Shown in pieces: positions 14,001 to 51,800 of a DNA stretch of 64,000 nucleotides. Under the pieces are notes generated by a model. That model saw only the letters and a list, made by a program, of their open reading frames with translations, searched no databases and was not told where the DNA came from. Position 1 is the stretch's first letter. Each line of letters begins with the position of its first letter. Position numbers and translations under genes: made by a program. The stretch is taken from positions 78,084,028 through 78,148,027 of the forward strand of contig NC_088295.1 in the NCBI RefSeq assembly GCF_032854445.1, in the 5' to 3' direction. Source of the stretch: Liolophura sinensis. Its lineage: Eukaryota > Mollusca > Polyplacophora > Chitonida > Chitonidae.

Positions 14001-17000
14001 TACTTGCCTTCAGTAAGTCTTCTCAGTGAAGCAGCACTAGATAAAAGAGCGGTAAAAATCTGTCCTACAACAAGGAGGCACATTACATGCACTGTAAGGA
14101 TTCCTTCGTTGTCATATAACTGAAAAATGGTTAAGTACGACGTTAAACCTCAAGCGCTCACTCACTCATATTAAAAAAACCTACATTTTCATATTACAAA
14201 ATCTTATGTCGAATAAACCGTAATCGGTAGAATTTTTACATGTATTATCCGATTTGTTTGGCAAGTAGTATTAAGACACTTTTCGTATACTAAAGCTTTA
14301 TAAATTAACTAGCTTCTCTCTGAATTAAACAAAGATCAATGATTAATCACGCCAAACTGTACAAAATCCTGCAAAACCTTTTTTGCATGTCTTAAAATGG
14401 CATGATAGAAGGGGGGGTAACTCTGTATGGGAAATTTGTCATAAGGGCTTTGGCACAAACCAGTCAAATTTACATGTATATGCCATCTTTGCCTATTACG
14501 TAATCACAAATGGAAACTTATTTGGAGTTTATGTTTCATGTTTTCAGGCAGATGACCGTTACCGCCTTGCTGATCCCATCTGTACGTTCCTCTTTTCCAT
14601 TCTTGTGCTTGTAACAACAATAACTATTTTGAGAGATACATTAAGAGTAATCCTTGAAGGTAGGTAAATTAGGCAGGGGTTAAAACAAGTTCTGCCTCAC
14701 TGTTAGTTGCCGGCTGTGTGCAGATGTACATATCAAATAGAAATGACCTTTCAAACAACAGTAGGTGTGACACGCAACACACTGGCTGGTACGTTTACCT
14801 CCCCAAATAATATCCTTTCATGGTAAAAGGATTTGAGTTTGTTTAATTTGATTTGATTTTTTATTTCACCAAATATTTTACATGTTTAAGTTAGATGACA
14901 GTGTATTTGTTAAATTTGTTGTTATGATTTATATTAATGTGAAATATTGAAATTTTCTTCAGCAATGAAAGTGTTATTTTGCACAATTTATAGATATCGC
15001 TTTTATTTTTACAATTTTAATATTTTACACCCAGACGTCATGGAAAGAGAAACATTTTGCTTCCTGACCTTCCAATCTGAGCTCAGTGATATGAGATCAT
15101 AATACCTGTACAGTAAACTTCTACATTCCTTCATGACACCATACTTACGCAGCTTTGAAATATCTAGGTCAACTGAGGTAATCTAAGTTTGGTGTTTTAA
15201 AAATTTCATTTTGCTGGGTATTTTTATACCTGTTCCTTACCCCTCTACACCATGCCTATTTTCCATCAGCGGTCAGATTTTTTCAGAAATTATTGTCATC
15301 GTTGATCTTGCTTGGAACTAGGTGAACACCCCGAAGTGCCCCAAGCCCAGTGAACCATGACGATACAGTGTGGGCAAGGTGACATGTACACAGATACTGC
15401 ATGTCTTCTTCGGGCCAGCTTAGTATCCCCTCCGTGCCCCTTCATTTGTGCCCCCTTTCCCTCTGTTCCCCACACCCCCGCCCCCATTCAGCCAGGCACA
15501 TTTGGTCTATCCCCCACAATTCTTTTTAAAGAGGAATCATCGTTGACATACTACATTTGCAGGACTGATTTTTGGGGCATTAAGAAAAAACTACTTTGAA
15601 CCCATTTTTACCTCCCCAAAGTTCCCTGCGTGGAAGTTGAAAAACTTGTTTGTAGTGTTGTATGTTATAACGCATGATGATCTGCACATTAAAAAATAAA
15701 ACCAAAGCGTTTTATGTATACAGTTCACACTACATGTACATTCATATCACTGTTACAGGTGTACCAAGTGAACTGAAGTATATGGAGATACTAAAGGACC
15801 TAGAGTCAATAGATGGTGTAGAAATGGCTCATGGATTACACTTGTGGTCCTTGACCATAGACAAGAATGCCATAGCTGTCCACTTAGCCATAGGTAGGTT
15901 ACACCGCTGTCATGCTCCCTGTTCAACACACTGGGCTCTAAATGGGATTGTTTTCATGAGTTGATGCTTATTTTGATTAAAGGACATATTTGACTTAAAA
16001 CCTGAAAACCTAACCATGAGTTGATGTGGTATTAATATTGTACATCATTTACATAATTAGTTCTGCATGAATTCTTAAAGAGACATTTAGAAATTGAACT
16101 ATAGTTAGTTCCGCATGAATTCTTAAAGAGACATTTACAAATTATCAAAATAGCATCAAAGGGTTGGTAAATGGATAAATGCACAACTAAAACAAGCCAG
16201 TTTCCAACTGAAGTCCAAAATACACACTGTTGTTCTTGGATAACCAGTGAGATTCACATAGTGAGATATTTTGCATATGACCTTTTTCAGCTAGACACGT
16301 TTTGCAAACGGCATTGTGAAGTCACCCGTGTACATGCTCTTGCATATTCACTGCATGCAGCAACAACAGCTGTCCGTTATTCACAGCGCAGAGGTCACCG
16401 AGAAAATTTATCTCACACAATGAAATCATCCCGTTGTGCGTTTCCACTTTGCCCTGTCATTTGGCTCACTGGGCACGTGCCGTTGTAAAACGCTGATCAC
16501 CAGTTTCATTGGCACGTGGAATCTTAGTCATCAAATGTATTAGGAGCCTAATGTGGATTTTGGACATCAGTTGGAAACTGGTTTGTTTTAGTTGTTCACA
16601 GTTAGGTTTTCAGGTTTTAAGTCAAATATGTCCTTGCATTGAAGATTGGCTGTGATATATTTTAGGAGTATTGTGAATTAAACGAAAAAAATGGTGCGCA
16701 AACTTTTGTATGATCAGCTGCTCGGATTCACACAGTTTACACAGCGTTTTTTTTTTTTTCCGCTTATATCTCAATAAACCGAAATAATATTACAGCCAAT
16801 ACTTAAACAAACCCTGTGAGTTCGATGGTTCTGCTTGTGCTATTGTCTGCCTTCTGTGGCTACTTTTGCTAATCTTTGTTAGTCAGTTTTTCATTACTTT
16901 GTAAATGACATTGTCTCATGTCCTAAGGTGACATGATTATCGAAAAAGTTACAAAAAATCTGACTTACAGGATTTTGTCAACGGAAAGCCAGATGAACAG

Positions 17001-17714
17001 TAATCACCAGGTTAATTGAGTTATATATTTGGTTATCTCAGAGTAACGACTTTAACATGTTTCCTTGAGCATTGTACTCACCTGGAGATCTGCAACCAAG
17101 CTAGATTGTGCACATAAAAAGATAAAAAAATCTTGAATATTCATATTCTGGATCTCTCGGTGAGCCTGAGGCTAGAGTTTAAGCTGCCACAGTGTTTTTC
17201 CTGATATACCCTAATTCCTCAAACTGTTTGCATATAAAAGAGCAACTTTCAGTGCAATTTATGCACATTTTTAATTAGATTTGGAGACAAAACTACATTG
17301 GCTGGATTAGCAAAACTGTTTGCATATAAAAGAGCAACTTTCAGTGCAATTTATGCATATTTTTAATTAGATTTGGAGACAAAACTACATTGGCTGGATT
17401 GGCCTCAGAAAAATTATAATTTGATCAGTCAACACAGAATAATGCCTTTATAATGTACTTGAATAAACACCTTGCAAGCATGCCAAAAGATTGAAGAATT
17501 ACAGTAGGGTTAAGACAAGACCCACCCACACATAAATTTTATCTTCCCTCTATTTTCAGATTCCAATGCTGATTTTGAGCGGGTGTTATCCATATCATCT
17601 ACAAAACTTCGCAATCAGTACAATTTCTACCACTGCACCGTTCAAGTTGAGCGGTACAACCATGAGTTGATGTCTACATGCAACCGCTGTCAAGGAGGTC
17701 CCCAAAGGATATAA
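8048..17714 (+). CDS. SLC30A2-like: Zinc transporter of the SLC30A2/3/8 (ZnT, cation diffusion facilitator) group, 5' exon(s) missing
   Basis: Predicted to export Zn2+ from the cytosol into vesicles by proton exchange. Six phase-consistent exons: 8048-8194, 10548-10704, 13520-13823, 14548-14659, 15759-15893, 17560-17714 (TAA), about 336 codons. Exon 1 here is TM2 with HLGSD; exon 2 is TM3-TM4; exon 3 is a histidine-rich cytosolic loop (GHSHGGHGHSHGG) then TM5 with HVIGD; exon 4 is TM6 (DPICTFLFSILVL); the last two form the C-terminal domain and end in a CNRC motif, the place of the CxxC tail in human ZnT2/3/8. The two HxxxD motifs are the expected transport-site ligands, so the enzyme looks intact. 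The first exon (N-terminus, TM1) must end in phase 1 and was not found, so it may lie left of the window. Introns carry SINEs, a foldback element and a decayed duplicate of the second exon's start. Confidence 0.93.
8661..8763 (+). repeat. Unnamed dispersed repeat, copy 1
   Basis: This segment, starting ATGTTCCAAGCAAACCTCAA, is clearly related to 57180-57283 in NCAPG2 (same orientation). Shared words include TTCCAA.CAAACCTCAAAA, CTCAG.AT..GAAA.TGG and AAATTT.TGGTCA. It has no coding content and I do not recognise the family. Confidence 0.7.
10139..10221 (+). pseudogene. Decayed duplicate of a zinc-transporter exon start with its 3' splice site
   Basis: About 80 bp here align with 10495-10574, which holds the end of an intron, the acceptor and the first codons of the second recognised transporter exon. 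The words GTTTCAGAGGT, CTTGG.GCACT and AGTGTTT recur in order. Read in the exon's frame the copy gives EVLGALVSV, then departs and stops within nine more codons. It therefore looks like an old local duplication leaving a decoy acceptor (AG at 10194-10195) 352 bp upstream of the real one. A SINE lies between the two copies. Confidence 0.75.
10262..10480 (-). mobile_element. tRNA-derived SINE, near full length
   Basis: Reverse-strand copy: tail side TTATTTGATTGGTGGTTTAC, body TGGGAGGAAACCAGGCAGAG, B-box region GAGCTGGACTTGAACTT, then the head (GGTGAGAGGCTCCCAGACTC). It ends about 65 bp upstream of a zinc-transporter exon. Confidence 0.8.
13890..14166 (+). mobile_element. Second dispersed SINE-like family, with ACGACGTTAAAC tail
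   Basis: This starts near GAGGAAGTTGTAACTTCCTC and ends AAGTACGACGTTAAACCTCA followed by CACTCACTC. Related sequence appears reversed at about 38555-38820, and tail fragments lie at about 21868, 31195, 36155 and 46389. A G-run at about 13978-13997 lies inside. It sits just after a zinc-transporter exon. Confidence 0.65.
15980..16635. mobile_element. Foldback (MITE-like) element with perfect 35-bp terminal inverted repeats
   Basis: 15980-16014 and 16601-16635 are exact inverted repeats (35/35, by eye). Just inside, 16184-16226 and 16552-16594 are inverted repeats at 40/43. The left arm carries about 160 extra bp between its two blocks. That insert includes an imperfect tandem duplication at about 16060-16142 around GCATGAATTCTTAAAGAGAC. 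A 12-bp direct repeat (CATGAGTTGATG) flanks the left terminal block at 15955 and 16015. There is no transposase; the open frame inside (16171-16488) resembles nothing. It lies in a zinc-transporter intron. Confidence 0.8.
17221..17403. repeat. Tandem duplication, 92-bp unit, two copies
   Basis: AAACTGTTTGCATATAAAAG begins both copies (17221 and 17313), and they are almost identical over the whole unit. The duplication therefore looks recent. It lies about 160 bp upstream of the last zinc-transporter exon. Confidence 0.9.
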
Positions 17715-25217: not shown

Positions 25218-28200
25218 GTAGTGGAATATTCAGCTCAAGTATATTTTAATTGTCATGTCAACGTGAGGTTTAACGTCAATTAGGCCCTACACGTAATAAG
25301 GAAGTCATTCGTACCTTAATTCCTCTAAAATTTGGGACAGATATTAGTAGTGTTGAATGTAGAATGTTTCATTTCTTTACCAGCCTATTTGAAAAGTAAA
25401 GATATGAGTATGTTGTTCATTAGATGGTCTAACCATGTGAGAAAAAAGAAAGTCAATATCCCTGCTAGAATTACATATATATTGGCCAAAATACGCACAC
25501 CAGGTGTCCCAAATTTTATAAGAAACAGGGTAAGATCTGCAGGCAGTTGCAAGAAATTCATTTTCCACATACCATATTTTCTCGTGGACTGTTTCAATCA
25601 ATTTATTTTTTTTGTTTTGAATGTCAATTAGCGTATATTATTTGACTGTGAATATCTAATGTGTATAAATACGTCCAATTCTGTTTAGTATATGCATGTG
25701 TTACAGTCTGTGTGGACGTGTTGACCTTGACACTGTGAAGATTGTCAGAACAAGTCAATATACATGTATATGCAGACTTCATTATGCACTATGTCATTCA
25801 GTACTTTATAGTTTGCCTATTCATGCATCGTGCACACGTTATTAAACTCTTGGAGAAGTGTCATCTGTTTATCGCTGCGCTTATCGACTAGTTTGGCATC
25901 TGTCATTATTACCTCAAACTTTAATTATTCAAACAGATTCTGCGCGTCTTTTCCGACGAACTAACCTTGACGAACTGGCCTATTCAAGAAGTACACATAT
26001 GAAGTCCTTTTAACATAAACTGCGGCATAATTTTGTTAACTTTGAAAATTATAAATTTAACCCATGTGTATGTTGTCTACGAGTCGCCTATATGTTCTAC
26101 ACAGGTGCGAGTGGTGCCTTTGGCCGGGGTATAGCTGTGGAGTTAGCTACCCGGGGTTACGCCCTCAGTCTTCACGGTCGGGACGAGAAAGAATTAGCCA
26201 CAACAGCAAAGGAGTGTCATGAATTCGGAGCCCCCGCGTCTGATGTACGTCTCATAATACACCCTTAGTCCACAAACGTTATATCGCCTTGAGAATCCTC
26301 ACTGCTTGACTGATGTGTGAGATATTTCTGATATAGGCTGATCGAAGTATTGGTGCTGAATTCAAAATCAGTCTGCAGATTGAGTGACAAAAACTGTGCT
26401 GTCATATCTAAAAACAACCAGCATTAATTCTGCTTCCGGGTTTTTGATGTCGTTGGCTTAATTCTATTAATCATTTTCCATTTTATTAACAAATCAAAAT
26501 GTATCAAAGCAGTAGCCCATGTATGGTAAAATTATGACGACAGACACTGAAGTATTGGTCACGGATCACACTAGGTCAGGGATCACACTGAGTCAGGAGT
26601 CGCACTGGGTCAGAAATCACAATCGGTCGGGGATCACAATGAACCAGTGATCACTGTGGGCCAGGGGTCTGAGATTACACTGGATCAGTGATCACCCTGG
26701 AGTGGGGATCACACTGGATCTGGGACACAATGGGCCAGAGGTCAGGGATCACACTGGGTCAGGTGTCAGAGATCACAATGGGCCAGGGGTCGGGATCAGA
26801 CTGGGCCAGGGATCGCAATCGGCTAGGGATCAGGGATCACACTGGGCCAGGTGTTAGGGATCACAATGGGCCAGGGGCCAGGGATCACAATGGACCAAGG
26901 GTCAAGGATCACACTGGGTCAGGGATCACACTAAATCAGGGATCACACTGGACCAGGGGTCACACTGGGCCAGGATCACATTGGGCCAGGGATCACACTG
27001 CGGTGGGTGGAGATTAAAGTATTCCCGGTGGATACAGCTAGATTCCTCAGGCACCTGTACATCACATGCAAATCTTCTAGTGTAATACGTATATGTTGGT
27101 ATTAATGAAAACAGCTCGGCTATACGTATAAGTATCAGGTATATATGATGCCTTATTAATGAAGCCTTTTTGTGGAGATTAGTACAGTTTTTGATACAAG
27201 AAGAGGTATAGTGTTTGTTGTTGTTGATGTACACTGGTTTACCGACATTTAGTCAGTCATACACCATGTTGTTCAATGTTTTAACCATTCCAGATATTAC
27301 TAGTTAAAGGAGACGTCCGTAGTCCAGAGGATATTGAAGAACTGACCAGGCAAACTAAAGAGAAATTCGGAAAATTGAATGCGCTGGTAAGTCAGTTATA
27401 TACGAAAAAACACGTGTTTGGATGTAGTGGTGGTGTTGGGGGAGGGGTGGGGTGGGGGTTGGGGGGGGGGGGTTGTTGAAGAGAAGAGTTGGGGGAGGGG
27501 TGTTGGAGACGAGAGTTGGGGGAGGGGTGTTGGAGAGGAGAGTTGGGGGAAGGGTGTTGCATAGCATACATGCAGTGTCGCAACAAGAATACCATTGGAA
27601 AATGTTGCGCTTTTATCTATTTATTTATTTGTTTTTATCTAGTGTTACTTAGACCTTAATAAGTATTAACTAATACCACGGTGCTAAGTTTTATGGTTAG
27701 AGGAACCTCCCGGAGTGCTGGGACTAAACCCTCGACCTTTCGCAAATAGCTGACAAAGTAGAACAGGTTTTCAACAACAGTGAACTCCAAACGCTTGCTG
27801 TATATTATCGGAAGGCAAATAATCTCAGACAAACTTCACCATACAGTGCATGGTGGCAGGCAGTCTCTAGGTTGTTCAGTACTACAGGTTTGAACCAAGA
27901 AATCGTATCTCCTTCCCATATTACCAATGAAAGACAAACATCTGAACCACTCAGCCAAGACCAACATGCTTGCGGTGTTTATACACGCTTTATGGTTCAT
28001 TCATCTAACCATTTCCATGCATGTAGATTCCGTCCTGGAGCAAATATTACATATTTAATCTCACAAAATGGAGATCATCGATCAAAATGTGTTCTCACCT
28101 GTTTTGCTCATTTTACTAGATTTGATGCATTTTGATGTCATTAAAGGATGAAAAAAATGGTGAAAATGCACTGTTTGAAACACAAGCAATATAAAGGAAA

Positions 28201-31200
28201 AAGTGGCCCTTTAATATATAGTTAAAGCAGAGTTGTTCTGCATTTACGGCAGCCGTCTGATTCCAAGGTGATGACGAATATCGTATACAACTTGCAGTAG
28301 AGCTAGTGAGTGCTGGTTGCACATTCTGGCTGTTTTACACTTTGGCGGGTTAACAGGATGCAGAATTGTCTTTATGTCGAAAGAGCACGCGTCCTAGAAT
28401 TTACATCCATCATTATACGGTAAATAAGAGCACTGTCCAACCGGGCTAGGTTTACATTGTTCTTTAGCAGTTAATAGCTTAGGTTACATCGGCTGTTCAT
28501 TTACGAAGATTGTTTTTTACCTCCCCTTGCCTCTCGAGGCGAGTGGAAAGCCTTTGTGCCAATCACAAGAATTATGTTTTTAAAGCTAGGCTTTCAAAAA
28601 TTCACGATGTAATATTTTTTTCATCATTTGACCAGTGTTATTTGATTAGTATATGGGGTATTGATCAATTGACAATATGCCCAACAGCGTATAATTACAA
28701 AAGTAAGATATTATAAATGTAAAGTATCTTCTGTTTGATCAAAAGCTTCATTTGGACAGTGTTCCACGGGCATACCTGTAACCTGTAGACTAGGTTTCCA
28801 GAGCCAGGTCTCCTCGCACCATAATGCTGGCCACCGTCGTATATTCTTCCGTACGGCGTAAGATTCCAATCAAAATAAATAAATAAACCCATTGGCAGGT
28901 TTTCTGTTCTGCTTCAGATTAACAACGCAGCAATTGCAAACCCACAAGACCGTCTAGATACAGTGGAACTAAATGAGTTTGACGAGATATTTAGGATAAA
29001 TTTAAGAGCGGCGTTTTACCTAACACAAATCTGTATGCCGTCTCTAGAAGAAACAAAAGGTAAGAACAGCAAGGTAATCAACCTGTGTTTATTTACCTAT
29101 TTGATTGGTATTTACTGCGATATACTAGTACTCATGTTCATTCTTGAAATATGTATGTAATATTTACTACGGCTGATAGGATCAGACCTCAGCTCATCAC
29201 GAGATACCCGACAAACCTTAAGGCCACGTCTAAACCAGCGAGCGCTGAATTCGGGTCTATAACTTCAATTTGACTACGGATGAAGCACAAACTCTTGTCC
29301 CAGAATAACAGAATTTAGCATCTTAAGAAAGTAATCGCCGTATCATCCAAGAGTAAATATTGCAAGCAAAATTATCATTTAATCTTATACTACAACTTAT
29401 GTTCCGATTTGTTCCAGGTACTGTTGTCAACATATCTAGCATCGCATCCGACATGCCGGTAAGTTCATGTAACATGTTAGGATTTCTGGTTGCGGATGAA
29501 TTACCGCCATCTTATGCAGGGCTACCAGCATTATATGGAAGACTAACAGTGTATATATAGGCCGACGCAGTGTAGATTAACGCTTGTCACGAGTTTTGTC
29601 AGTGAAAAATTGATTTCTACGAATAATTCGCAAAAACTAATTAATTGAGTTTTGTGAAACGGCAGTTGTGAGATTAGGTTAATTTGACTCTGATATATGT
29701 ATGCATGTTCTAATGATTTTTCCCCATGCAGAATGCCCAGACGCTAGTTTACGGGATGTCCAAGGCTGCCTTAGACTATTTTACAAAGGCATTGGCAAAC
29801 GGTAAATATGCAGTTCTATACTTCACGCCGATCAGCTATTAGACGGACATGGAACATAAAACATATATTCTACAAAATGTTTGCACTATTTATTCCTCGA
29901 ATGTTTGTAGTGTTGATCTCAATTGCTGCCATATATATCATCTAGCAGTACATTAATTCTTGTCTTGCTTGACCAATCTTTTGTTACGCGTTCATGCATA
30001 CCATTTACAACCAAACATAAATATAGGATTTAATTTTGAACTCGTACTTTTAAATTCTGTCATAATGCATAAACCTATGTAATATTCAGACTGACCGGGT
30101 TCATGTGGACTGTACATTGACATGTTTATTTTCAGACGTCGGTCCGTCTGGAGTAAGGGTGTGCGGTGTTCAGTGAGTGCTCATCTACTCTACATTGCAT
30201 TCTTGGGGAAATTATACATTTAAAACTATGTAGTCACCAGCAACAGTTCTGATTGTTGTTCTATTTGAGATATTTTTCAATGGGTTTCACAATTATAAAA
30301 TTCTAGTCACCTTAGCCGGAGAGCAATGATATAGCATGACGATGATGATTTGCACTCTCTGTTGAATAAGAGGCAATACACAATAAGCGCCAGAATATTT
30401 AAGTTCCGGCTCCTTGAAGTGAAACTCCACGAAGTTACACATATACAAGGTTACCAATGTGCCAATGAATCATTTTGCCTACATTTCAGGCCAGGATACT
30501 TCCCCGCTAAGTTAAAGGAAGGAATGTTCCCAGGCATGGAATCTGTGAGTTCTGAGGCGGTAAGTAAACTGCCGGGTTTGGTAGAATGTGCACGATGAAC
30601 CATGAAATGTAAGAAAGTCGTCAAGCACAATGGCTGTCAATGTAGTAAATAGTTGCTCGGGTTATGTGTAGTCTTTCATCGAAAGCTTGTGACATAAGCG
30701 ACTGTCAAGTTTTACATGAAACTAGTGGAACAACCACAGCAAGCGTATTAATGTGAAGATGAAGTCTCAGGGGAAACCGTCATTCAGTAACAAGAACTAT
30801 TTCTGGGCCACTTTTGACTTAGTTTTCCCAATACTTTTTTCACTTCAGATGAACAAAATAATAATGTCCATGCAACCACTTCGGCGTGTTGGGAAGGTAT
30901 CAGAGATCGCCAAAACCGTAGCCTTTCTTTTATCAGAGGATGCAAGCTTTATCACAGGTGTCAATATTTGTGTGGACGGAGGAATGCATTTCCCAAGTAA
31001 GACAACTTGAATCTAAATCGATCAGCCTGCTCTCACTCCTTGTGGGGCCTTGTTGACACAAGTACTGGTGGGCATTTTACAGCCCGTTTGTACACTTTAA
31101 CGTCATTTATTTGCCACAAAGATCAACAATTTGTAAGTCACAAGACCGACAGTAAATTGGAAAAAGTTGGAAGTTTACGCGGTTTTTTTTCCTCCGATAA

Positions 31201-32812: not shown

Positions 32813-35800
32813 CTACCCTGTTATCAACTGGTCTTGTATCTGTCGTAATCTGGACATCAGTCCTCTCAACACCAGCCTGTAAATCAAACATACACATAAG
32901 ACCATTTCTGTCTGCAAATTATTCATTTGATGAGTGTTCAACGTCAATTCAAGAGGATTTCACTGTTATAAATGGAGACCAAAATTAAATGACTCAGGGC
33001 AATTTTCAGCATTCTGATGATATATTTGGTCAATACAAGACCTACATGTCTACGATCAAAGTTTACTGTCAGATTGTCCTTTTTCTTTACTATTATGTGT
33101 GAGATTTACATGCTGATATCATAGCTTGTCTCCACCAAACAACACTAACCCACATTTGCCATTCTTTCCTCTCAAAAAAATTTTGAGAGAGGATTCAAAG
33201 ACCACGAAATAATGGTGTTAATGCTGAGTACCTATCAGGACTGTCCTCCTCGTAGTCAGCCATGTCCTGTTGCATTTGTTCAGCCTGTACTTGTAGGGAG
33301 ACCAGGCAGTCCTTCAGACCTGACACTGATGATTTACCTGTGACAATAGAGCAACACTCTGAGCATTTATCCCAGGACTGTTATCAGTAAGGCAGAATGG
33401 TAATTGATTGGATTATTGTTTAAAGATAAACTGAAAAATGGCAATCAGTTTAATAGGTTGAGGAAAGTGGAGTGCCCGGGGAAACTATCAACCTTTGGCA
33501 AGTTAAAAACACTGAGGCACAACAGTATAATGGGCCAATGAAATTCGGCCTGCACATGCAGTATCTTTTTCTAATTTAAATTTTATTTAATTTAACTAAG
33601 ACATATTTTTGTTTAAACTAGCAGGTCAAGTATACAATACATACAATGGTAGAGGTTTGCAGTCAAGTACACAGCTCCATTCAGTCCGTTTAGGCCAGGC
33701 AAAGCACCGGAGCTGATGCACTCACTCAGCTCTGACGAAAATGACCTGGAATGGAAAAACAAAAGATATCAAGTTTACAACACATCTATTTATTTATTAT
33801 TTATTTCATTTGGATTTAACAACATGTAAAATAATATTTTACTTATCCAATGGCTACACAACGAAAATCATTGTCTCCACGTACCAAACACAAATGACTT
33901 AAAAAGAATGAATTTCAGCTGTAGAAACAAGAGGCACAATTTGCAAAATGTATCTATCTAAAACAAATCTGAAGTAACATTACAATATTTAACAAAAAGA
34001 AATAAATTTTTATCAAAAAGAGTCCTAGATTTCAGAGCACGTGTACTTACGTAGCCATATAGTTTTTCTTGCAAATGATGCTCAGTAAAAATGCAGAAAG
34101 GGGAGGTAAATCTGACAAAGATTCACACAATTCATCTTGATCCAGTTTCCCCTAGGGGGTAGAAAACATGGAAATGCATCACAGATGAAGCAAGAATTAT
34201 TCAGCTCGTGTCATACACAGGTACTAGCTACACACATTGTTTTATAGAATTATTGGTTACTTTTCAGGGAATCAATGTGAATAATACAGCACTAAACTAC
34301 ACCTCTGGTGTCTGAGCAAATTTCTGCCCTCATTCCATGAGGACTATATTCAGTGACGAGTTTATGTGATGACTAAGGTTCGAGATTCACATTTTTACAT
34401 ACTATGAAGACTCACTCCGATATCTGCTGCTTTGAAAATTATTAAGTGACTCACTCAGATATCACCTTCTTCCATAACTACGAATCACACATAACTATAC
34501 GCTGAGGTCAGAGATATGACGTTATCTGTTGCTTTAACATTTATGAATTGACTCCCACACATTTTGTGACGAAAAAGGTTTGACGTCTACATGACAGCTG
34601 CTTTACAGCTATGAAGTCACTAGAAAATTATCAATCTATAATGTCGGAGACTAAATGATTCCATCAGATATCTGTTGCTTTAATAAATAGTGGCACATAA
34701 AACTGAGATGAAACAATTAAGGTTTCACTTTATGGATATCTCCTTCCCAGAGAAGTCGGATATGATATCAGTTGACTCATCAGAATACCATGATGCAGGA
34801 GGTCTGAGATTTAGAGAAAAGTGTTTTATTGACACGCTTAAATCTTAAAAAAAATCTGGCTCTCTTTCCCCAAAAAACTGTATGAAATGACTCACAATTT
34901 TACTGAGATGGGTGAGGTTTAGAGATTACCTACCAGACAACTGTATTAAGTGACTCACTATTTCCATGTGATGGTGAGATCTGAAATGACATCCCAGACA
35001 ACTGTATTAAGTGACTCACTATTTAACTGTGATGGGTGAGGTCTGGTATGACATCCCAGACAACTGTATTAAGTGCCTCACTATTTTACTGTGATGGGTG
35101 AGGTCTGGTATGACTTCCCAGACAACTGTATTAAGTGACTCACTATTTTACTGTGATGGGTGAGGTCTGGTATGACATCCCAGACAACTGTATTAAGTGA
35201 CTCACTAATTTACTGTGATGGGTGAGGTCTGAAATAACTGCTGCCATCACAGAGGACATGATCTCTGGGACAAGTTTGGACTCCAGTTGCCGACATCTGT
35301 AAACTGCTTGTAGCATCTCTGTCATGGTGGGCTTCATACTGGATAACAGCTGAAATATACAATCATCTCTTTTTTGTTAACCAATAAAATCACTTCCTTC
35401 AGTTTTGTACCTGATCCATTTATTTGGTTGGAGTTTTGCCCCAAACTCAATAATATTTGACTTATACGACTGCGGCCAGCATTATGGTGGGAGAAAACCA
35501 GGCAGAGCCCTAGGGAAACCACAACAATCCGCAGGTTGCTGACAGATCTTCCCATGTATGACCAGAGTGGAAGACAGCATGAGCTTGATGTCACTGTGCA
35601 GTTTGTATTTGAAAAAAATAACAGAAAACATGCAATATTTAAATGACCACAGTATGAACCAGGATGAAAGCTTCAAGCCTTGAGTTGTGAGATGTTAATT
35701 ATAGTCAGGTTTATCTGCTATAAAAAATCTTGAGGCATTCATAATTACGGGGAAAAATCTGAACAAAATCACAAGTTTTTTTTGTTATCTAACGTAATGA

Positions 35801-38800: not shown

Positions 38801-41800
38801 TTTGGTATGACTTTGCATTATTTATGAACAGCTGAAGTATACATTTATAAAGTCTTTATTATAGTGTCATGGATGTATGCCTTTTCTGGGCGAAAACTGC
38901 CACATATTTATTTCCTTTTCACTGTAAACCCATTCTCCATGGATGGTACCTACCTTTGACTTGGACTGGCAGGGATCAGGAATTTTTAAACCATCTTCTA
39001 ACCACTCTGTAATGAGTTCCACCAGTTCAGACATTTTGCCCCAGTTACACATGGCCTCAAGGAGTACCCAGTAGTCATCAGATCCACACTCATCTGTCAT
39101 GTCCTTCAGGCGAGACAAACAGCTGCGGCTGAGAAAGGACAGAAGAGATACTGGGTTGTCAAAGATTGCAGCTATTGACTTATAATAAACATAAAATTTC
39201 ACTTTAAACATCAGCCATCACAAGAGGGCCATTCATCAAAGTGAAAAGGATGTGCTTGGAAAGGTCTCACCACATGTACAGAAACCAGTACACAATTTTA
39301 AAGCGAAAAACTTGAGGGCGTGTATCTTACAAAGCTCAAAAAAGGTATATTCTAAGCAAATAGACTTAAGGAAGTCTTAAAAACTGTACAATTTAAGTAA
39401 ACAAACTTGTCAAGAGCACAAAAACTGCACAATGCAAGAAAATAGACTAGATAAATACTAAGCCTGTACATATGTAACTGCAATCAAGCATGTAGCTCAT
39501 TCATTTTATGAAGGAGTGATGAATGCAAATAAGGGTGCAAAATGAACACATTGATAAACTTCATACCTTATCATAAAAACAAAGTGTTTTTGCATATAGC
39601 AAGAGCTACAAACTGTCATCCTGCTGGGCAAACTGGTAGTAATAGTACTGAGGTTTACCTTACCTGAAATGTGGGACCATGTCAGGGGGCATCAGACTGG
39701 CCAGCAGGACTAGAGCAGAGTAGGCGTGTCGATTCTGTAACAGATTTGACCCATTTATTGCAGTGTTGTTTAACACTACTCAAAACCTGTTCTTCTATTC
39801 AGTGCGGTTCATGTTATGGGTGCCCAGAGGAAAACACAAATCACTGTAGATTTATTGGCAAACTCTCCTGCCTGTGACAAACAATATGTTGGTGAGCTTG
39901 AAAGAATTTAAAGTGATCACCACTATCACCAAGGATACTGAGACAGATGACAGGAAGGGTATCTAGAAAATTCCCTGTCTGAGAAACTGAGACAAGACCA
40001 AGTCTCAATGTATGCATGTATGCATGCCTGGGTTTGTACACATATTTAAAATTTTTTTCTGTCATTTGATGACGAGGGGACATTAAGTCCCTGTATAGTA
40101 TGTATATTGAGTATTCTTGAGGCAGAGCGAGTCCATCCTGTCAAAGTGCTAAAGACACCTTCCACAAAGACATTTCCGACTTAAGTCAAAATTTAAAACG
40201 TTGTCACAATGCTTAGTTTTTGGTAATGAAAATTGAAATTTTGACACATATATCTTATGATAACATAGATGAGCTTGTCAAAATTTTAATATATAGGGTT
40301 CAAAAATAAGCTGCAAATTCACATTTCAATGTTTGACTCAAGTCAAAGCTGGTCTTTGTGGAATCTGCCCCCGACATGACACTCTGCAAAGTCACTTACA
40401 TATTATACCAAGTCACGCAGCCAACCAATTTCCTTGTTCTAACTTCAACAGGCCAGGGAAGGTAGCAAGTTTGGTACAACCCGACTCGGGGTTTGAACCC
40501 AGACCTCCCAACTTCAATGCGGGGGCTTTAACCATTGGACCACTGAAGCGGTTTTGTCTCACACAGGTTAATGATTAAACAGCAAGCTCTGTATAAACCC
40601 CTTTCCTGCTTTCCCTGCCATAAGTATCACACATCATGTTTGTAGTGACACAAGTGGAGGTATAAACTAAAGTGTGCACTGTGAGAAGTATAATGTGGAG
40701 TTGCTTCTTGTATCCAGGTATACTGCTTGGTTCTAATAAAGGTCTCCCTACATACACAATGGGAAGTATAATGTGTAGTTGCCCCTTGTATCCAGGTGCC
40801 CTGCTTGTTTCCAATAAAGGTCCCCCAACATTCACTGTGGGAAGTATAATGTGTAGTTGCCCCTTGTATTCAGGTACACTGCTTGGTTCTAATAAAGGTC
40901 CCCCAACATACACAATGGGAAGTATAATGTGGAGTTGCCCCTTGTATCCAATTACACTGCTTGGTTCTAATAAAGGTCCCCCAACATTCACTGTGGGAAG
41001 TATAATGTGGAGTTGCCCCTTGTATCCAGGTATACTGCTTGGTTCTAATAAAGGTCTCCCTATATACACAATGGGAAGTATAATGTGGAGTTGCCCCTTG
41101 TATCCAGGTACACTGCTTGGTTCTAATAAAGGTCCCCCAACATACACTGTGGGAAGTATAATGTGGAGTTGCCCCTTGTATCCAGGTATACTGCTTGGTT
41201 CTAATAAAGGTCTCCCTATATACACAATGGGAAGTATAATGTGGAGTTGCCCCTTGTATCCAGGTACACTGCTTGGTTCTAATAAAGGTCCCCCAACATA
41301 CACTGTGGGAAGTATAATGTGGAGTTGCCCCTTGTATCCAGGTATACTGCTTGGTTCTAATAAAGGTCTCCCTATATACACAAGGGAAGTATAATGTGGA
41401 GTTGCCCCTTGTATCCAGGTACACTGCTTGGTTCTAATAAAGGTCTCCCTATATACACAATGGGAAGTATAATGTGGAGTTGCCCCTTGTATCCAGGTAC
41501 ACTGCTTGGTTCTAATAAAGGTCTCCCTATATACACAATGGGAAGTATAATGTGGAGTTGCCCCTTGTATCCAATTACACTGCTTGGTTCTAATAAAGGT
41601 CTCCCTATATACACAATGAGAAGTATAATGTGGAGTTGCCCCTTGTATCCAGGTACACTGCTTGGTTCTAATAAAGGTCCCCAACATACACAATGGGAAG
41701 TATAATGTGGAGTTGCCCCTTGTATCCAGGTACACTGCTTGGTTCTAATAAAGGTCTCCCTATATACACAATGGGAAGTATAATGTGGAGTTGCCCCTTG

Positions 41801-44800
41801 TATCCAATTACACTGCTTGGTTCTAATAAAGGTCTCCCTATATACACAATGGGAAGTATAATGTGGAGTTGCCCCTTGTATCCAGGTACACTGCTTGGTT
41901 CTAATAAAGGTCTCCCTACATACACTGTGGGAAGTATAATGTGGAGTTGCCCCTTGTATCCAGGTGCACTGCTTGTTTCCAATAAAGGTCCCCCAACATT
42001 CACTGTGGGAAGTATAATGTGGAGTTGCCCCTTGTATCCAATTACACTGCTTGGTTCTAATAAAGGTCTCCCTATATACACAATGGGAAGTATAATGTGG
42101 AGTTGCCCCTTGTATCCAGGTACACTGCTTGGTTCTAATAAAGGTCCCCCAACATACACTGTGGGAAGTATAATGTGGAGTTGCCCCTTGTATCCAGGTA
42201 CACTGCTTGTTTCCAATAAAGGTCCCCTGACATTCACTGTGGGAAGTATAATGTGTAGTTGCCCCTTGTATTCAGGTACACTGCTTGGTTCTAATAAAGA
42301 CCCCCCCCCCCAACATACACTGTGGGAGGTATGACGTGGAGTTGCCCCTTGTATCCAGGTACACTGCTTGTTTCCAATAAAGGTCCCCCAACATTCATTG
42401 TGGGAAGTATAATGTGTAGTTGTCCCTTGTATTCAGGTACACTGCTTGGTTCCAATAAAAGCCCCCGAACATACACTGTGGGAAGTATAATGTGGAGTTG
42501 CCCCTTGTATTCAGGTACACTGCTTGGTTCTAATAAAGGTCCCCCAACATACACAATGGGAGGTATGACGTGGAGTTGCCCCTTGTATTTAGGTACACTG
42601 CTTGGTTCTAATAAAGGTCTCCCTACATACACTGTGGGAAGTATAATGTGTAGTTGCCCCTTGTATCCAGGTGCACTGCTTGTTTCCAATAAAGGTCCCC
42701 CAACATTCACTGTGGGAAGTATAATGTGTAGTTGCCCCTTGTATTCAGGTACACTGCTTGGTTCTAATAAAGGTCCCCCAACATACACAATGGGAAGTAT
42801 AATGTGGAGTTGCCCCTTGTATTTAGGTACACTGCTTGGTTCTAATAAAGGTCTCCCTACATACACTGTGGGAAGTATAATGTGTAGTTGCCCCTTGTAT
42901 CCAGGTGCACTGCTTGTTTCCAATAAAGGTCCCCCAACATTCACTGTGGGAAGTATAATGTGTAGTTGCCCCTTGTATTCAGGTACACTGCTTGGTTCTA
43001 ATAAAGGTCCCCCAACATACACAATGGGAAGTATAATGTGGAGTTGCCCCTTGTATCCAATTACACTGCTTGGTTCTAATAAAGGTCTCCCTACATACAT
43101 TGTGGGAAGTATAATGTGGAGTTGCCCCTTGTATCCAGGTACACTGCTTGGTTCCAATAAAGGTCCCCCAACATTCACTGTGGGAAGTATAATGTGTAGT
43201 TGCCCCTTGTATTCAGGTACACTGCTTGGTTCTAACAAAGGTCCCCCAACATACACTGTGGGAAGTATAATGTGGAGTTGCCCCTTGTATCCAGGAACAC
43301 TGCTTGTTTCCAATAAAGGTCCCCCAACATACACTGTGGGAAGTATAATGTGGAGTTGCCCCTTGTATCCAGGTACACTGCTTGGTTCTAATAAAGGTCT
43401 CCCTACATACACTGTGGGAAGTATAATGTGGAGTTGCCCCTTGTATCCAGGTGCACTGCTTGTTTCCAATAAAGGTCCCCCAACATTCACTGTGGGAAGT
43501 ATAATGTGGAGTTGCCCCTTGTATTCAGGTACACTGCTTGGTTCTAATAAAGGTCCCCCAACATACACTGTGGGAAGTATAATGTGGAGTTGCCCCTTGT
43601 ATCCAGGTACACTGCTTGGTTCTAATAAAGGTCTCCCTATATACACAATGGGAAGTATAATGTGGAGTTGCCCCTTGTATCCAGGTACACTGCTTGGTTC
43701 TAATAAAGGTCCCCCAACATACACTGTGGGGAGTATAATGTGTAGTTGCCCCGTGTATCCAGATACACTGCTTGGTTCTAATAAAGGTCACCCAACATAC
43801 TGTTTTGCTTGTTTACAAGCATATACAGTAGGTCAGATTTGTGACGGATGGCAAAAGAGCAATACTTATGGTGTCCTCATCACTCAATGATTTCTCATTT
43901 CAGGATTTTGCAGCTGAGGATGAATTTGGAAATGCTTATGTTCCATTAATAAGTACTTCCTGATAATACAGATGTAATACCTGAAATGTTAATTACTGCT
44001 TTAGATCCATAGTCGTTCTGTGATGATAATGAAGAAGTCAAGGCATCACCAAGCAGGGCATTCAGAGAACATTGGTAGCTTGTCTGATTGAGCAGTTCGT
44101 AAAGCCCCATCATGTTCAAGTCATATGATACGTTCAAATCATGACCGCTAAACTAAAATGAAGTAGAATGACTGACACTTTCATACACAGATATTATTCT
44201 CTAATTAGACAGTACTACGATCTTGCTATTGAATCAAGAAGAAAGGCCAAAATTGTTATACTGTCACAACTACGACCGTTTATTAAGTGTATTCATGAGG
44301 ATTGCAGAGCAATGACTTTGTATGTAAAGACACTGTGTTCGTGCATAAATTTACTGCTGAGGTCTTTGATATACAAATCGCAAACTGCCATGACTGCATT
44401 TGGCAATCCATATACTACGGGAAGCAATTAACTGCAACCTTGTGAATGAGTAAATGTTAAGCTCCGAGGTGAAAAAACTTCCTTGATCTTTGATAAGCAA
44501 ATCGCTACAAACAACTGGCTACCTGGCTGGCCAAAAACTTCAAACCAAACTGGACATTGACACTACCATTGCCAACATCTGATTCACCCTCTGACCAACA
44601 ACTCTCCTTACTTCACAAGCTTTTTGACCCTCTCTCTAAAAAAAACCTGACACAGACCCAGGCAAGTTGGTGTAAATCTTGTGCATCTTTTTATACTTTT
44701 ATTACCTCAAATGTGTTCAGGAACTCTGGCATGGCAATGGCAAACCTTCTCCTCAAGCCTCGACGTAACTCTTCATTCTGGAAAGCATAGACATTCAAAC

Positions 44801-45859: not shown

Positions 45860-48800
45860 CTGAAATCAGACAAGTACACTCAACACTTTATGCTTATGGA
45901 CACATGCTTACATGATATTTCATTACTGATTTATTTATTTGACCGGAATTTCATGCCGTACTCAAGAATATTTCATGTATTTGAGGGTGACCATCATTAT
46001 GGTGAAAGGAAAACAGGCTGAGCCCAGGGAAAACCCACGATCATCTGCAGGTTGCAGACAGACCTTCTCACGTATAGTCAGAGAAGAAGCCAGCATGAGT
46101 TGGAACTAACAGAGACCACACTGGTAAGAGGCTCCTGGATCATTGCACTGTGCTGGCATGCTAATTGCCTCTCATCCCCCCCCCCTCCCCCCCCCCCCCA
46201 ACAAACCAATATATCATTAAGATTACTGTTAAAGAAGCTGATTAAACCCTTGATGATACAGTGTTTTCCTCAACTTGTTAGAGGCTAGAACAGGGTTGTG
46301 CTTGAAGAATCTATTCCCCAATTAATTTGACTAAAATTCTAAGACACATCAACAATACTGGTTAATAAGGTGAAGATATATATTTAATAATTAGATTAGG
46401 GTTGAATGTCGTACTCAACAATTTTTAACTTGTAAGACAGATGTCAACTTTATAGGTGGAAGAAAATCAGAATGTGTTGTGATGGAAACAATGCTTTAGC
46501 TGAAGAAGTCAGCAAGGGTACACTATAAATGACAGCTGAGTTTAATGGTCTACAGTGAATGAAATCACCAATGCACAGTTTTGGCTGAGAGAATACTACC
46601 ACATGATATACATGAATGTGGTCTTCACACTTGCAGTAGGGAGGGAGTGATACATGTTCAATGACTAAGACATTTCTCAAATTATACAGTATGTGTCTTA
46701 CCAACACACACACAAAGGCTATAAGAATGATCTCTCTTAGGAGTGAAGAGATTTTCTCCCTGAACTTTTAATGTGTCTTCAGAAAGACTCCTCACACCTA
46801 AATAAAAATAAGCCCGCACAGGTTGCTAGCTGCTCAACAAATGCGAAGTTCATTCAAAGAATGCTTAACAAGAGAAGTAGAAAGATGTGTATTTGTACAA
46901 GCACTAGGCACTAAGTGATGGCACACTTCTGTGTGACTACAGGCACGGTAGGTCACACCTAGAGCAGAGTCAACAAATACTCCCAACTCCTCTATACAGT
47001 CAATGTGTACAGAAGGATATGTATCAGGTGACAGCTATTAACTGCCGGATTCTTTACTTTTTGTTCCCAATATCCACTAAGAACACTCAAAACCCTCATA
47101 CTTTTAAAAATTATTTCCACTTACACTGGTTTTATTCTGTTTTAAGAGTCAGTTTATTTCAGTTTAGTAGACACTGAAATGCAAAGGAAAAATGCAATAA
47201 CACAAAAACTTAAATTGAGAGAGTTTTCATCACATAACATGCGCGGAATCCAAGGCATACAAAGACGTAAATGTAGTTATGGGTGGGCAGTTGTCATGGT
47301 GCTTGATAAACAGTTTGATTCACACATTGGTCGCAAAGTATCTGCAAATCCAATTTCACTTAACAATTTATTCTGTGCAGAGGAAGAGTTAAGACTGATC
47401 TTTTGCTCAAGGTGGACAAGCAACTTAACTGCTGACAAACTTAATACGAGCCCAGCATGGCTTCCACTCTTCCAAATTACATCTCTAATGACTTTGTGAC
47501 TTGTTCGCTCTGTTTCTCTGCGTACAAGGACCCCAGGACTCTGCCGTGCTTGCACTCCTTCTGTCATTCCTGTTTACAGGACTACCTTAGCAAGAACACG
47601 AACAGCTCGGTTTTCGCGTGTCCAGTCTGTAAAACAAGGACCATGTCAGCATCCGAGGGTGCCACCAGGTTTAAAGCCAACCACTTCCTGTCCAGCCTGA
47701 AGGATACATTCCCCGATGTAAAGGATCTCACACCGTGGTGTGAGTTCTGTGCAGGTGAGGGTAGAGATAAATCGGGGACATCTCGGTGCCTGGACTGTCG
47801 CCAGTCTCTCTGTGACACTTGTGCCGCAGTGCACTGTCGCACCAAGCTTACCCAGAGCCACCTGGTACTCACCATGTACCAGCTTCAGAGCGGCAAGTAC
47901 GATAGAGACATTCGGATACGTCAGCCAATCACCTGTGAGGTACACCCAGGGAAGAAGGTGAAGCTGTACTGTACGAAGTGTGAGCAGCTACTCTGTCTGA
48001 CATGTAAGGCCACTGACCACGATGGGCACAAGTGTGTTGACCTGTTTGACATTGGCTCGCATGACCGTGAGTTTCTCCGAACACTTATGGAGCCCGTCAA
48101 AAACAAAGTGCCAATGTTTGAGAGGCAGCTAAGGGAAGTGGAAAGTAGCGAGACTGATGTGATGGTGAACAGAGAGCACCTGATGGAGGAGCTGCACGCC
48201 CGCCGCGACTTCCTCTGTAAGATGATTGAGGATCGCTGTAACACGCTTAAGGCCCAGATAGACGGAGTGTTTGTCAGCCATCAGAAACAGCTGGAGGGAT
48301 ACAAAGAGTCGCTGAGGCTAGACATCCAGTCCATGAAGACAGCTGCAGACTTCACAGACAAGCTGGTAACCCACGGCCGTGACGCAGAAATCGTCAGTAT
48401 GAAGAGCCTGGTACACGACAGGCTGGTCTGGCTCAAATCACTGGAAACCTCGGCTGCACAATTCCAGGATGGCTTCAAGTTCCAGATGGGCTCCATTTCC
48501 AAGGAGGAGCTACAAAAAGTGTTTGGGAACTTGGTTAGAGGAGCCTTTCCACAGCCTCGATCGGTGACTCCTCTACCAACAATCTCTCCTAAGCCAGTGG
48601 CAGACAGAACGCCACGCTACGAACAACCCAGAGATAGAGGCATCTCACCAGTACGAGAGCCTGCTGAAAAGCCAGTAGAGTATGTTTATGCTGAGACAAA
48701 GCCAAGAGATACGGTGCCTATTCTAAAGTCTTCACATACTTACCCAGAAGATAGTATACCTGTCCACCCCCACCCCTTCTACACCCGCCCAATCAAGGTG

Positions 48801-51800
48801 AGGAGGGACACCCGCAGAACACCCCCTAATGTGAAGAAGGCCCCGATTGCCAGAGAGCATGTGCAGTCGGCAGAGACGCGTCTGCCGCCTGTCCATCAAC
48901 AGCCGACTCGCGTTGCTAACGCCCACCTGTCAAAAGCCCAAATGATCAGGTCACTTCCAGTGAGGACTAGTCAGGACAGTAAGAAGAGCTGGCCCACAGA
49001 CATAGCTGTCAACAGTATTGGGGAGCTCCTGGTCGTGGACAGCAACAACAAGAAAGTCAAAGTGTTCAGTAAAGAGACGTTCCTCAGGGCAGAGATAGGT
49101 CGCACAGGTAGACAGAAGCTGATAGACCCCTGGTCGGTAGCCGTTCTCAGCAACGACAACATCGTGGTCACAGACAGAGGAAGCCACAACGTCAAATTCT
49201 ACAACCACAAGGGCAAGTTTCTGTACTCTTTTCAGGGCGGCTTAGCAGATCCGCACGGAGTTGCCGTCAACAGTAAGGATGAAATCATTGTGGCGGACTG
49301 GGAGAAACGGTTAGTGTATGTGTTTGATCCTAATGGCAACCTGCTGAACTCCATATCAGGGGTGGACGGATCTCCGTTATTCCACAGCCCTTACTACGTG
49401 AGTGTGACGCCAAGTGATGACATAATCGTCTCAGACTACATGGGTCACTGTATTAAGATCTTTGACCCCGAGGGAAGAGCCCTGTATCAGTATGGCACAC
49501 GTGGTGCAGCTGAAGAACAACTCAAGTACCCTAACGGTGTCTGTGCTGACACATACGGGAACCTGATTTTGGTAGACAGGGGAAATAACCGCATTCACAT
49601 GATATCTATGGAGGGTCAGTTCCGCTGTTTCTTGGCCACAGTACAAGATGGAGTTCGGGATCCAACAGCTGTCTGTGTGGATAGGGACGGTCATTTAGCT
49701 GTCACTGACGGCACAGGCATGATCAAAATGTATAGATACTTCCCACTCCAGTGAACAATGACCCACACAAAACCAATCAATGTGTGACATTTCAAATAAC
49801 TTATTAGCATAATTTATTTAATATCAGTTAAGAGAAATGACATAAATCCATTTGTATGCTACTGATTTATATATTTATTTGATTGCTGTTTAAGTTTTAT
49901 GCCATATTCAGGGTGTTCAAAAAAAGCATGTAGCAGGCTGCAGCTGTTTACTGCCATAACCACAGCCGCCTACACTGAATATTGTAACTATTTAAATCAT
50001 TCGTAATTGTGACATAATTACTTTCAATTCAGCCGCCTACTTTTGAACCTCCTTCTGCAATTCTAAATTAAAACCCTGCATATTCAAGAATTTTATGTGC
50101 TTATCACCACTGGAATTTATTTTGTCATCATATGTAAATAACATGATATCTTATAGATTGTTATCAGAGACATCCCTTGACATGTTTATTTTGTTCTTGG
50201 AATCTAAACATATCAAATGTCTGGTTACAAGGCAACATGTGACAGTACGACATTGTAAAAGGACTACGCTTATTATTTTTACTGTTAAGTTTATTGTAGA
50301 AATTTCTCATTTAGGTTTAACACTGATTACTAAAATGTGAAAGAATGGAAAAGCCCCACACCTTTGCAATGCCTTTCATCTTGTTTGAGCACACATTTAG
50401 AGCAAAATATTAGTTAAGAAGAAATGAATTCCACTCAAGTTTGCGAGCATTTGTCCATTCTCCCATTTTTATTAAAATAAAACATAATTACACGTAACAT
50501 TGCTTTGGCATTGATACTGTATGTACATGTATACATGCAATCCAGGGTACCTACAATGTACAGGTATATGAAAATGAAATCTTCAAGTAGTTTTCCACGA
50601 GTTTTCTGTCATTTTTAAGGCTAGTTTAAACATACCATGGTGCAAATTATACACTATATTTTAGGTCTGAATTACAGATGTTTTAATTTACATGCATGTA
50701 TATTGAATAGTACGCTTGCTTTTGCAGGAAATATCTGCCCTTCACCTCTGTAATGTGACACATTCCTTGACCCGGCCTTGGCTCAGTAAAAAAATTATTG
50801 CCATATATCATTATACAGGGCTTCCTCTGGTTCAGTAGTTTTAGTATTTTTTTCAGCCAGTCACTTTAGCCACTCATCAGATTTTGTAGTAAATACTATT
50901 TTTCTTTAGCCATACTTCCTTAGCAGATAGGACACTTGTAGGTCTCCTTCTGCAATTCGTTTTATCTGCCTTGGTGTAGCTACTAGAATCAGTTTGGTCT
51001 CTTTCAACTATATCTGGAGTTTATCAAATGTTACATTTAGAACAGTTGCCCTCAAAATAATGGAACAATGCTTGGCAGCTTCCTTTTGTTTTTTGAAAAA
51101 AAAAATCAATCCTTTTTTCAACTTTTTTGTAGAATCCTAGTAAAATGTAATTTCCTCTATCAGAAAAATTTGTTACGAAATTAAATGGTAAATTCAGTTT
51201 ATTTAAATGCAACATTATGATCGGTACATTGAAGTAAAACAGTGTGGCAGAAGAAAACCAGATGACGTACACACTTATGTAACGGCACATATTCTGAAAC
51301 ATTTAATTTACTTTGGATCCAAAAAAAATGTTTATTAAGTGGAAAAGTTTAAATTTTACATGGAAGGTAACTTCATTTACATGTGTAACTCTACCTTGAT
51401 TTATTTCCCTTGATAATTTTTTATTTTTATTTTTACAATTGGCGATGAAAGGTATCCCCCAAAATGCCATGGCTCTCATTCGTTATTTAACAATAATGAT
51501 TTCAAGCGTTATTTAATGTAAGTCAACTTGCAGCAATGCTGAACCCCCTTTGTAGATTTCTGACAAGTAATCGCCATACAACTGTGTTGTTTCGCTGAGA
51601 TGAGGCCGTTTGAAATGAAACTAAGTAGTTTATTTTAATTAGAAAAATTGTGAAAATCTGCTAAACACCCCAGGAAACTCTCATGGTAGATTTTGTATAA
51701 CGTTTGTATTTTTTCTTAAGTAAATAAATTTGTCGAGAAACACATTTGCATTTTTTCATTTTTTTTTTGCATTTTATCGCCATTTCAAAAAATTGTTCTA

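Follow-up and report, generated by a model that had tools for sequence, protein, structure and literature searches.

Tandem repeats that carry splice donors have precedents in the human genome. IFI6 (6-16, G1P3) reportedly harbors a minisatellite with multiple splice donors, said to have been described by Turri et al. in 1995; its unit is shorter than the one considered here, and the repeat is positioned at an exon border. The repeat units act as alternative donors, and use of two downstream repeat donors results in three mRNA species (PMC4526556). The second case is the VNTR in intron 18 of human ABCA7, which consists of a 25-bp unit present in about 12 to about 427 copies, varies between people, and contributes the GT of its first repeat as the donor of exon 18 (De Roeck et al., 2018; PMC5954066). 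Retention of one unit is described as a minor isoform in which the frame is shifted and a premature stop is reached. The frameshift isoforms amount to 14 and 2%, and from the order of listing in the accessible part of the source these values are read as cryptic acceptor use and one-unit retention, respectively (PMC5954066). In the same part of the source, array length goes along with skipping of exon 19, and the frameshift isoforms are unchanged by length. A related event concerns the RdRp gene of potato, where a tandem duplication spanning an intron-exon border gave rise to a new intron (PMC4974935). The intron repeats of earthworm metallothionein genes, as presented in the available text, have no bearing on donors (PMC12783039).

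The array treated here lies in NCAPG2 of the chiton Liolophura sinensis, within a window of 64,000 nt (assembly GCF_032854445.1, contig NC_088295.1, positions 78,084,028 to 78,148,027 of the forward strand); all positions below are those of the window. It crosses or abuts the exon-intron border, carries a donor-looking GTGAG in six of six recognizable units, and is of a kind already known from ABCA7 and IFI6, as far as the accessible parts of these sources describe them. With ABCA7 it shares a tandem repeat flush with the exon and a retained unit that leads to a premature stop (predicted for the chiton); the ABCA7 unit, however, starts at the donor GT and is intronic as described, whereas about half of the 62-bp chiton unit is coding exon. 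The alternative messages of IFI6 are said in the available text to encode isoforms, while the five downstream donors of the chiton array all meet a stop. As in the potato gene, as far as it is described there, the duplication extends across a splice border and the splicing signals are inherited from the parental structure, but a single duplication created a new intron in potato, and repeated duplication would have lengthened an existing one in the chiton. Less usual in the chiton array are the large coding share of the unit and an apparent aging of the copies along the intron. The reading favored here, with a probability of roughly 0.7, is an exon-edge minisatellite that arose from the exon itself, whose duplications were tolerated, with donor 35206 mostly used and the other donors giving minor premature-stop messages.

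The exon and its gene

The array is attached to a coding exon of 144 nt (35206-35349, minus strand) that ends in phase 0 (...MSSVMAAVISDLTHHSKL), as judged from its translation and from alignment to a PDB sequence. The translation ends with ...ISDLTHHSKL and is followed directly by GTGAGT. The next exon, with a length of 101 nt (GKLDQDELCESLSDLPPLSAF...; 34051-34151, minus strand), is preceded by the acceptor CCCCTAG just before 34151 and followed by the donor GTAAGT; the intron between both exons spans 1,054 nt and ends at 34152. When the C-terminal exons were used as a query against PDB, 9f5w_G, the Condensin-2 complex subunit G2 (presumably the human protein), was the sole sequence up to E=10, with E=9.4e-9 over its residues 980-1129. 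The similarity to this known G2 subunit covers the exons concerned, and the LSDLPP of the next exon is also present in 9f5w_G. Other queries were less informative. The exon fragment alone gave nothing useful in PDB, Pfam assigned no family to either of two pieces, one of them including intronic read-through, and the joined-exon query hit mainly pentatricopeptide-repeat proteins through a single short segment and gave G2 an E-value of 0.017; these proteins were rejected as candidates, as the C-terminal query retrieves G2 alone.

The alignment to 9f5w_G spans the exon border and contains a gap of one residue but no inserted repeat (...ISDLTHHS-KLGKLDQDELCESLSDLPP... versus ...VVEISHQLRKVSDVEELTPPEHLSDLPP...). 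Since it is continuous over the border, the exon bases shared by the repeat unit are coding sequence of an NCAPG2-like gene, and only donor 35206 can give a full-length message. Just before the border the similarity is modest (I-S-D-L-T-H-H-S versus V-V-E-I-S-H-Q-L). In the same alignment, IMSSV of the predicted protein is placed opposite VLSTL, residues 1007-1011 of 9f5w_G, which we take to be the reported PLK1-binding site of the G2 subunit, a site said to go back to Kim et al. in 2014.

A tandem array at the exon edge

On the minus strand, about six 62-bp units occupy positions 34876-35239. TRF reports a period of 62 with 5.9 copies, 89% matches, and a score of 556 (34869-35231), which bears out the array that an earlier note on this DNA had placed at the edge of the NCAPG2 exon. 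Each unit runs from the end of the NCAPG2-like exon (about 33 nt) through a GTGAG(T) donor into about 20-29 intron bases. Five recognizable intronic units (34876-35185, minus strand; TRF and profile matches) are located 3' of the exonic copy and match a sequence profile with E=7.6e-26 to 1.2e-11; as this profile was built from four of the five, those four match by construction, and the independent matches are the last unit (34938-34876, E=1.2e-11) and the exonic copy (35239-35186, E=3.4e-18). The exonic part of the unit corresponds to the last 33 nt of the exon (35206-35238, minus strand); the five intronic copies agree with it at 29, 29, 28, 28, and 26 positions. Gaps are needed for the final two of these copies, which reach 21 and 22 of 33 when aligned without them, scarcely more than the maximum of 20 of 33 that an ungapped comparison gives for other places in the window, on either strand. 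On the sense strand of 34876-35205, GTGAGT occurs five times against a shuffle mean of 0.245, a number reached by none of 1000 shuffles. The alignment to the G2 subunit, in-silico splicing, and exon homology agree with the earlier description of the unit as NCAPG2 coding bases plus a donor, except that the 20-odd exon bases proposed there are too few, about 33 nt being common to the copies.

In a search of the 609-Mb genome, where failure to match is no proof that copies are absent, BLAST placed the array at this locus only, all five matches to a 26-base pattern with up to three mismatches fell inside the array, and the distal intron matched itself alone. A dispersed repeat or transposon-borne satellite is not supported, as neither BLAST nor the pattern returned copies elsewhere in this search. 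An assembly artifact, either in the array itself or in its number of copies, is also very improbable. Assemblies may in general give short tandem arrays a wrong length, but the units differ from one another, the whole array is shorter than 400 bp and so within the span of a typical long read, and the genome search returned no further copy of the locus.

The array RNA is predicted to fold somewhat better than shuffled sequences (z -2.24; 2 of 100 shuffles equally good). This excess is not used for any mechanism, because repeats with internal complementarity can fold in this way and donor accessibility differs little among the copies.

Six donors and their predicted messages

The last exon bases before the six GTGAG sites are 35206, 35144, 35082, 35020, 34959, and 34896, exactly as listed in the earlier note; its GTGAGT is found in five copies, and the third copy reads GTGAGG. 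Donor 1 (GTGAGT, 35200-35205, minus strand) is the only one of the six that opens into the next exon when the message is spliced in silico, giving HHSKL-GKLDQDELCESLSDLPP, which is consistent with the alignment to 9f5w_G. The in-silico messages of the other donor-like sites on this strand would be longer by 62 nt for site 2 (GTGAGT, 35138-35143), 124 nt for site 3 (GTGAGG, 35076-35081), 186 nt for site 4 (GTGAGT, 35014-35019), a frame-neutral length that contains stops, 247 nt for site 5 (GTGAGT, 34953-34958), and 310 nt for site 6 (GTGAGT, 34890-34895). Reading past donor 1 adds 20 foreign residues before a TAG (35143-35145, minus strand) that is common to all messages skipping donor 1; in the message from donor 2, the next exon supplies the last letter of this TAG with its first base. 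A premature stop in messages from downstream donors had been anticipated and is the same TAG for five of five, although it is the 21st codon and not one within about 15 codons as supposed. The related claim that only the first donor keeps the frame is true only through the internal stops, since the 186 nt added by donor 35020 are a multiple of three.

Pairing with the 5' end of U1 is predicted at -5.7, -5.7, -5.1, -5.7, -5.7, and -5.5 kcal/mol for donors 1-6, within the range of three donors located downstream in the gene (-7.1, -3.5, and -5.5 kcal/mol). The predicted accessibility of the six donors is likewise similar (0.27-0.40, with a region mean of 0.48). As neither U1 pairing nor accessibility singles out donor 1, some use of downstream donors is to be expected, and it is the reading frame alone that points to donor 1 as the site in use. 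In vertebrates, nonsense-mediated decay follows a distance rule; given this rule and the 101-nt length of the next exon, the downstream-donor messages would be open to such decay. Of two competing donors, SRSF1 favors the intron-proximal and hnRNP A1 the intron-distal one, according to the accessible part of the source (PMC5585400). Where SRSF1 is abundant, this preference could let a donor with a premature stop prevail, and by analogy such effects would cut against a clean first-donor rule.

Apparent aging of the copies along the intron

Compared with the exonic copy, the 60-nt units show 92, 92, 90, 89, and 80% identity when moving away from the exon, and the three young copies are 95-98% identical among themselves. 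A tree of the copies is weakly supported (0.64-0.83), and the duplications were not ordered by it. The exonic copy carries TTTCAG, as does the copy at 34959, and the three youngest copies have ATACCAG instead. These differences bear on the opposite course of events, namely that a minisatellite existed in the intron first and that gene conversion then carried it over the exon edge and replaced the last ~10 codons. Unit homology does cross the border and the young copies hardly differ among themselves, as such a process might leave them; yet similarity of the exon to the G2 subunit continues as far as the border, if at a modest level, and the exonic TTTCAG, shared with copy 34959 and absent from the young ATACCAG copies, indicates that the exon has not taken on the young type. 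An intronic origin appears quite unlikely on this evidence.

Beyond the recognizable units, local alignment detected probable decayed copies on the same strand (34331-34838, minus strand). The best segments (34838-34766, 34622-34536, 34455-34440, and 34379-34331) are scattered and comprise about 225 nt in total. The unit was aligned to 34152-34868 under a looser and a stricter scoring, with 300 shuffles and 172 other 717-nt stretches serving as controls for the stricter one. With looser gap costs, ranks 1-2 were reached by 0 of 172 control stretches, and ranks 3 and 4 by 44 and 113 of 172. Under the stricter scoring, which was picked after the looser-gap result had been seen, the four best scores were 17.5, 17, 16, and 12.5, reached by 1, 0, 0, and 0 of 300 shuffles and by none of the 172 stretches at any of these ranks. 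Rank 5 did not reach significance (matched by 29 of 300 shuffles and by 8 of 172 stretches), and the reverse complement scored at shuffle level. In the profile search the decayed segments are marginal, with E=0.022 for 34455-34440, E=7.4 for 34377-34343, and E=10 for 34810-34791, and an unrelated match at 26334-26297 (E=0.21) outranks the latter two. The best preserved piece of one segment is AGTGAGTCACTTAATA, identical at 16 of 16 positions (34455-34440). The decayed copies mostly lack a donor, and the two GTGAGT found in the distal intron (34152-34875) are not above chance, as 61 of 1000 shuffles reach this number.

Judged from sequence comparison, decayed copies are likely to be present downstream of the array, which probably extends past 34880, the end given in the earlier note, with copies detectable to about 34331. 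The identity gradient and the decayed segments together suggest that the array is young next to the exon and older further down the intron. The distal intron further contains small repeats at 34404-34689, TATCTGTTGCTTTAA and a 38-nt family with three copies each, which are perhaps an older subtype of the NCAPG2 donor array.

The same region is relevant to the idea that the array is a regulatory device, in which competition among six donors sets the fraction of premature-stop messages, and the amount of a condensin II subunit is adjusted through copy number. The identical stop reached from all five downstream donors, the GTGAG kept in six of six copies, and the full preservation of AGTGAGTCACTTAATA in one decayed segment would fit this idea, which we nevertheless consider unlikely. 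The chance-level GTGAGT of the distal intron gives no clear sign of donor maintenance there, and one-unit retention in ABCA7 is constant across array lengths in the accessible part of the source (PMC5954066). With frameshift isoforms independent of array length in that gene, tuning by donor number is a weaker proposition than was first implied.

Origin and consequences of the array

In the favored reading of an exon-edge minisatellite, tandem duplication would have acted repeatedly on a segment made up of ~33 bases from the coding end, the donor, and about 20-29 intron bases. The most upstream donor would still join the intact exon to the next exon, and the surplus copies would become intron; duplications across the border would be tolerated because this donor still yields the normal message and the remainder turns intronic. 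With one end of the array held constant by selection on the coding exon, nearby copies would remain similar and distant ones would decay. Donor 35206 would serve for most pre-mRNA. If one of donors 2-6 is now and then chosen instead, a stop would follow 20 foreign residues, and the message would probably be destroyed or the protein truncated. Most likely, the array is neutral with slight mis-splicing. We infer its history, neutrality, donor usage, and message decay from the DNA, and the array alone does not show regulation of condensin.

A more specific and tentative proposal, possible but doubtful at present, is that the coding exon end, maintained together with its donor by selection, serves as a fixed master copy, which seeds new copies of exon plus donor beside itself while older ones decay downstream, and that the intron from about 35205 to 34331 consists mostly of such copies. 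If true, this would be a polarized route of intron lengthening, and if the gradient were confirmed in relatives, an exon border could feed intron growth. The locus also represents a natural donor-duplication experiment, with six almost equivalent donors spaced by about 62 nt, of which the first alone is predicted to be productive, and RNA reads would show how position alone affects donor choice in Liolophura sinensis.

Other features of the window

Further tandem repeats are present in the window. A 78-bp unit is repeated 40 times at 40677-43800 with 90% matches; it is open in several frames on both strands, carries AATAAA and CAGGTAC on the plus strand, and all 16 genome matches listed for it fall inside 40677-43800. 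A 92-bp unit occurs in two copies with 98% matches at 17221-17400, probably as a recent duplication, and overlapping 17-, 24-, 40-, 64-, and 88-bp tandem repeats on GGGATCACACTGG-like words are found at 26557-27000. At 13482-14667 (plus strand), a histidine-rich HGHSHGG stretch, with a 21-bp tandem repeat inside, and a nearby open frame together look like an SLC30-type zinc transporter. On the strand opposite NCAPG2, a single open frame of 769 aa (47445-49754, plus strand) is possibly nested inside the NCAPG2 span and presumably encodes a RING/B-box/NHL protein (TRIM2/3-like). Exon-like pieces read by eye at about 28900-31000 (plus strand), convergent with the 3' end of NCAPG2, are presumably exons of a short-chain dehydrogenase.
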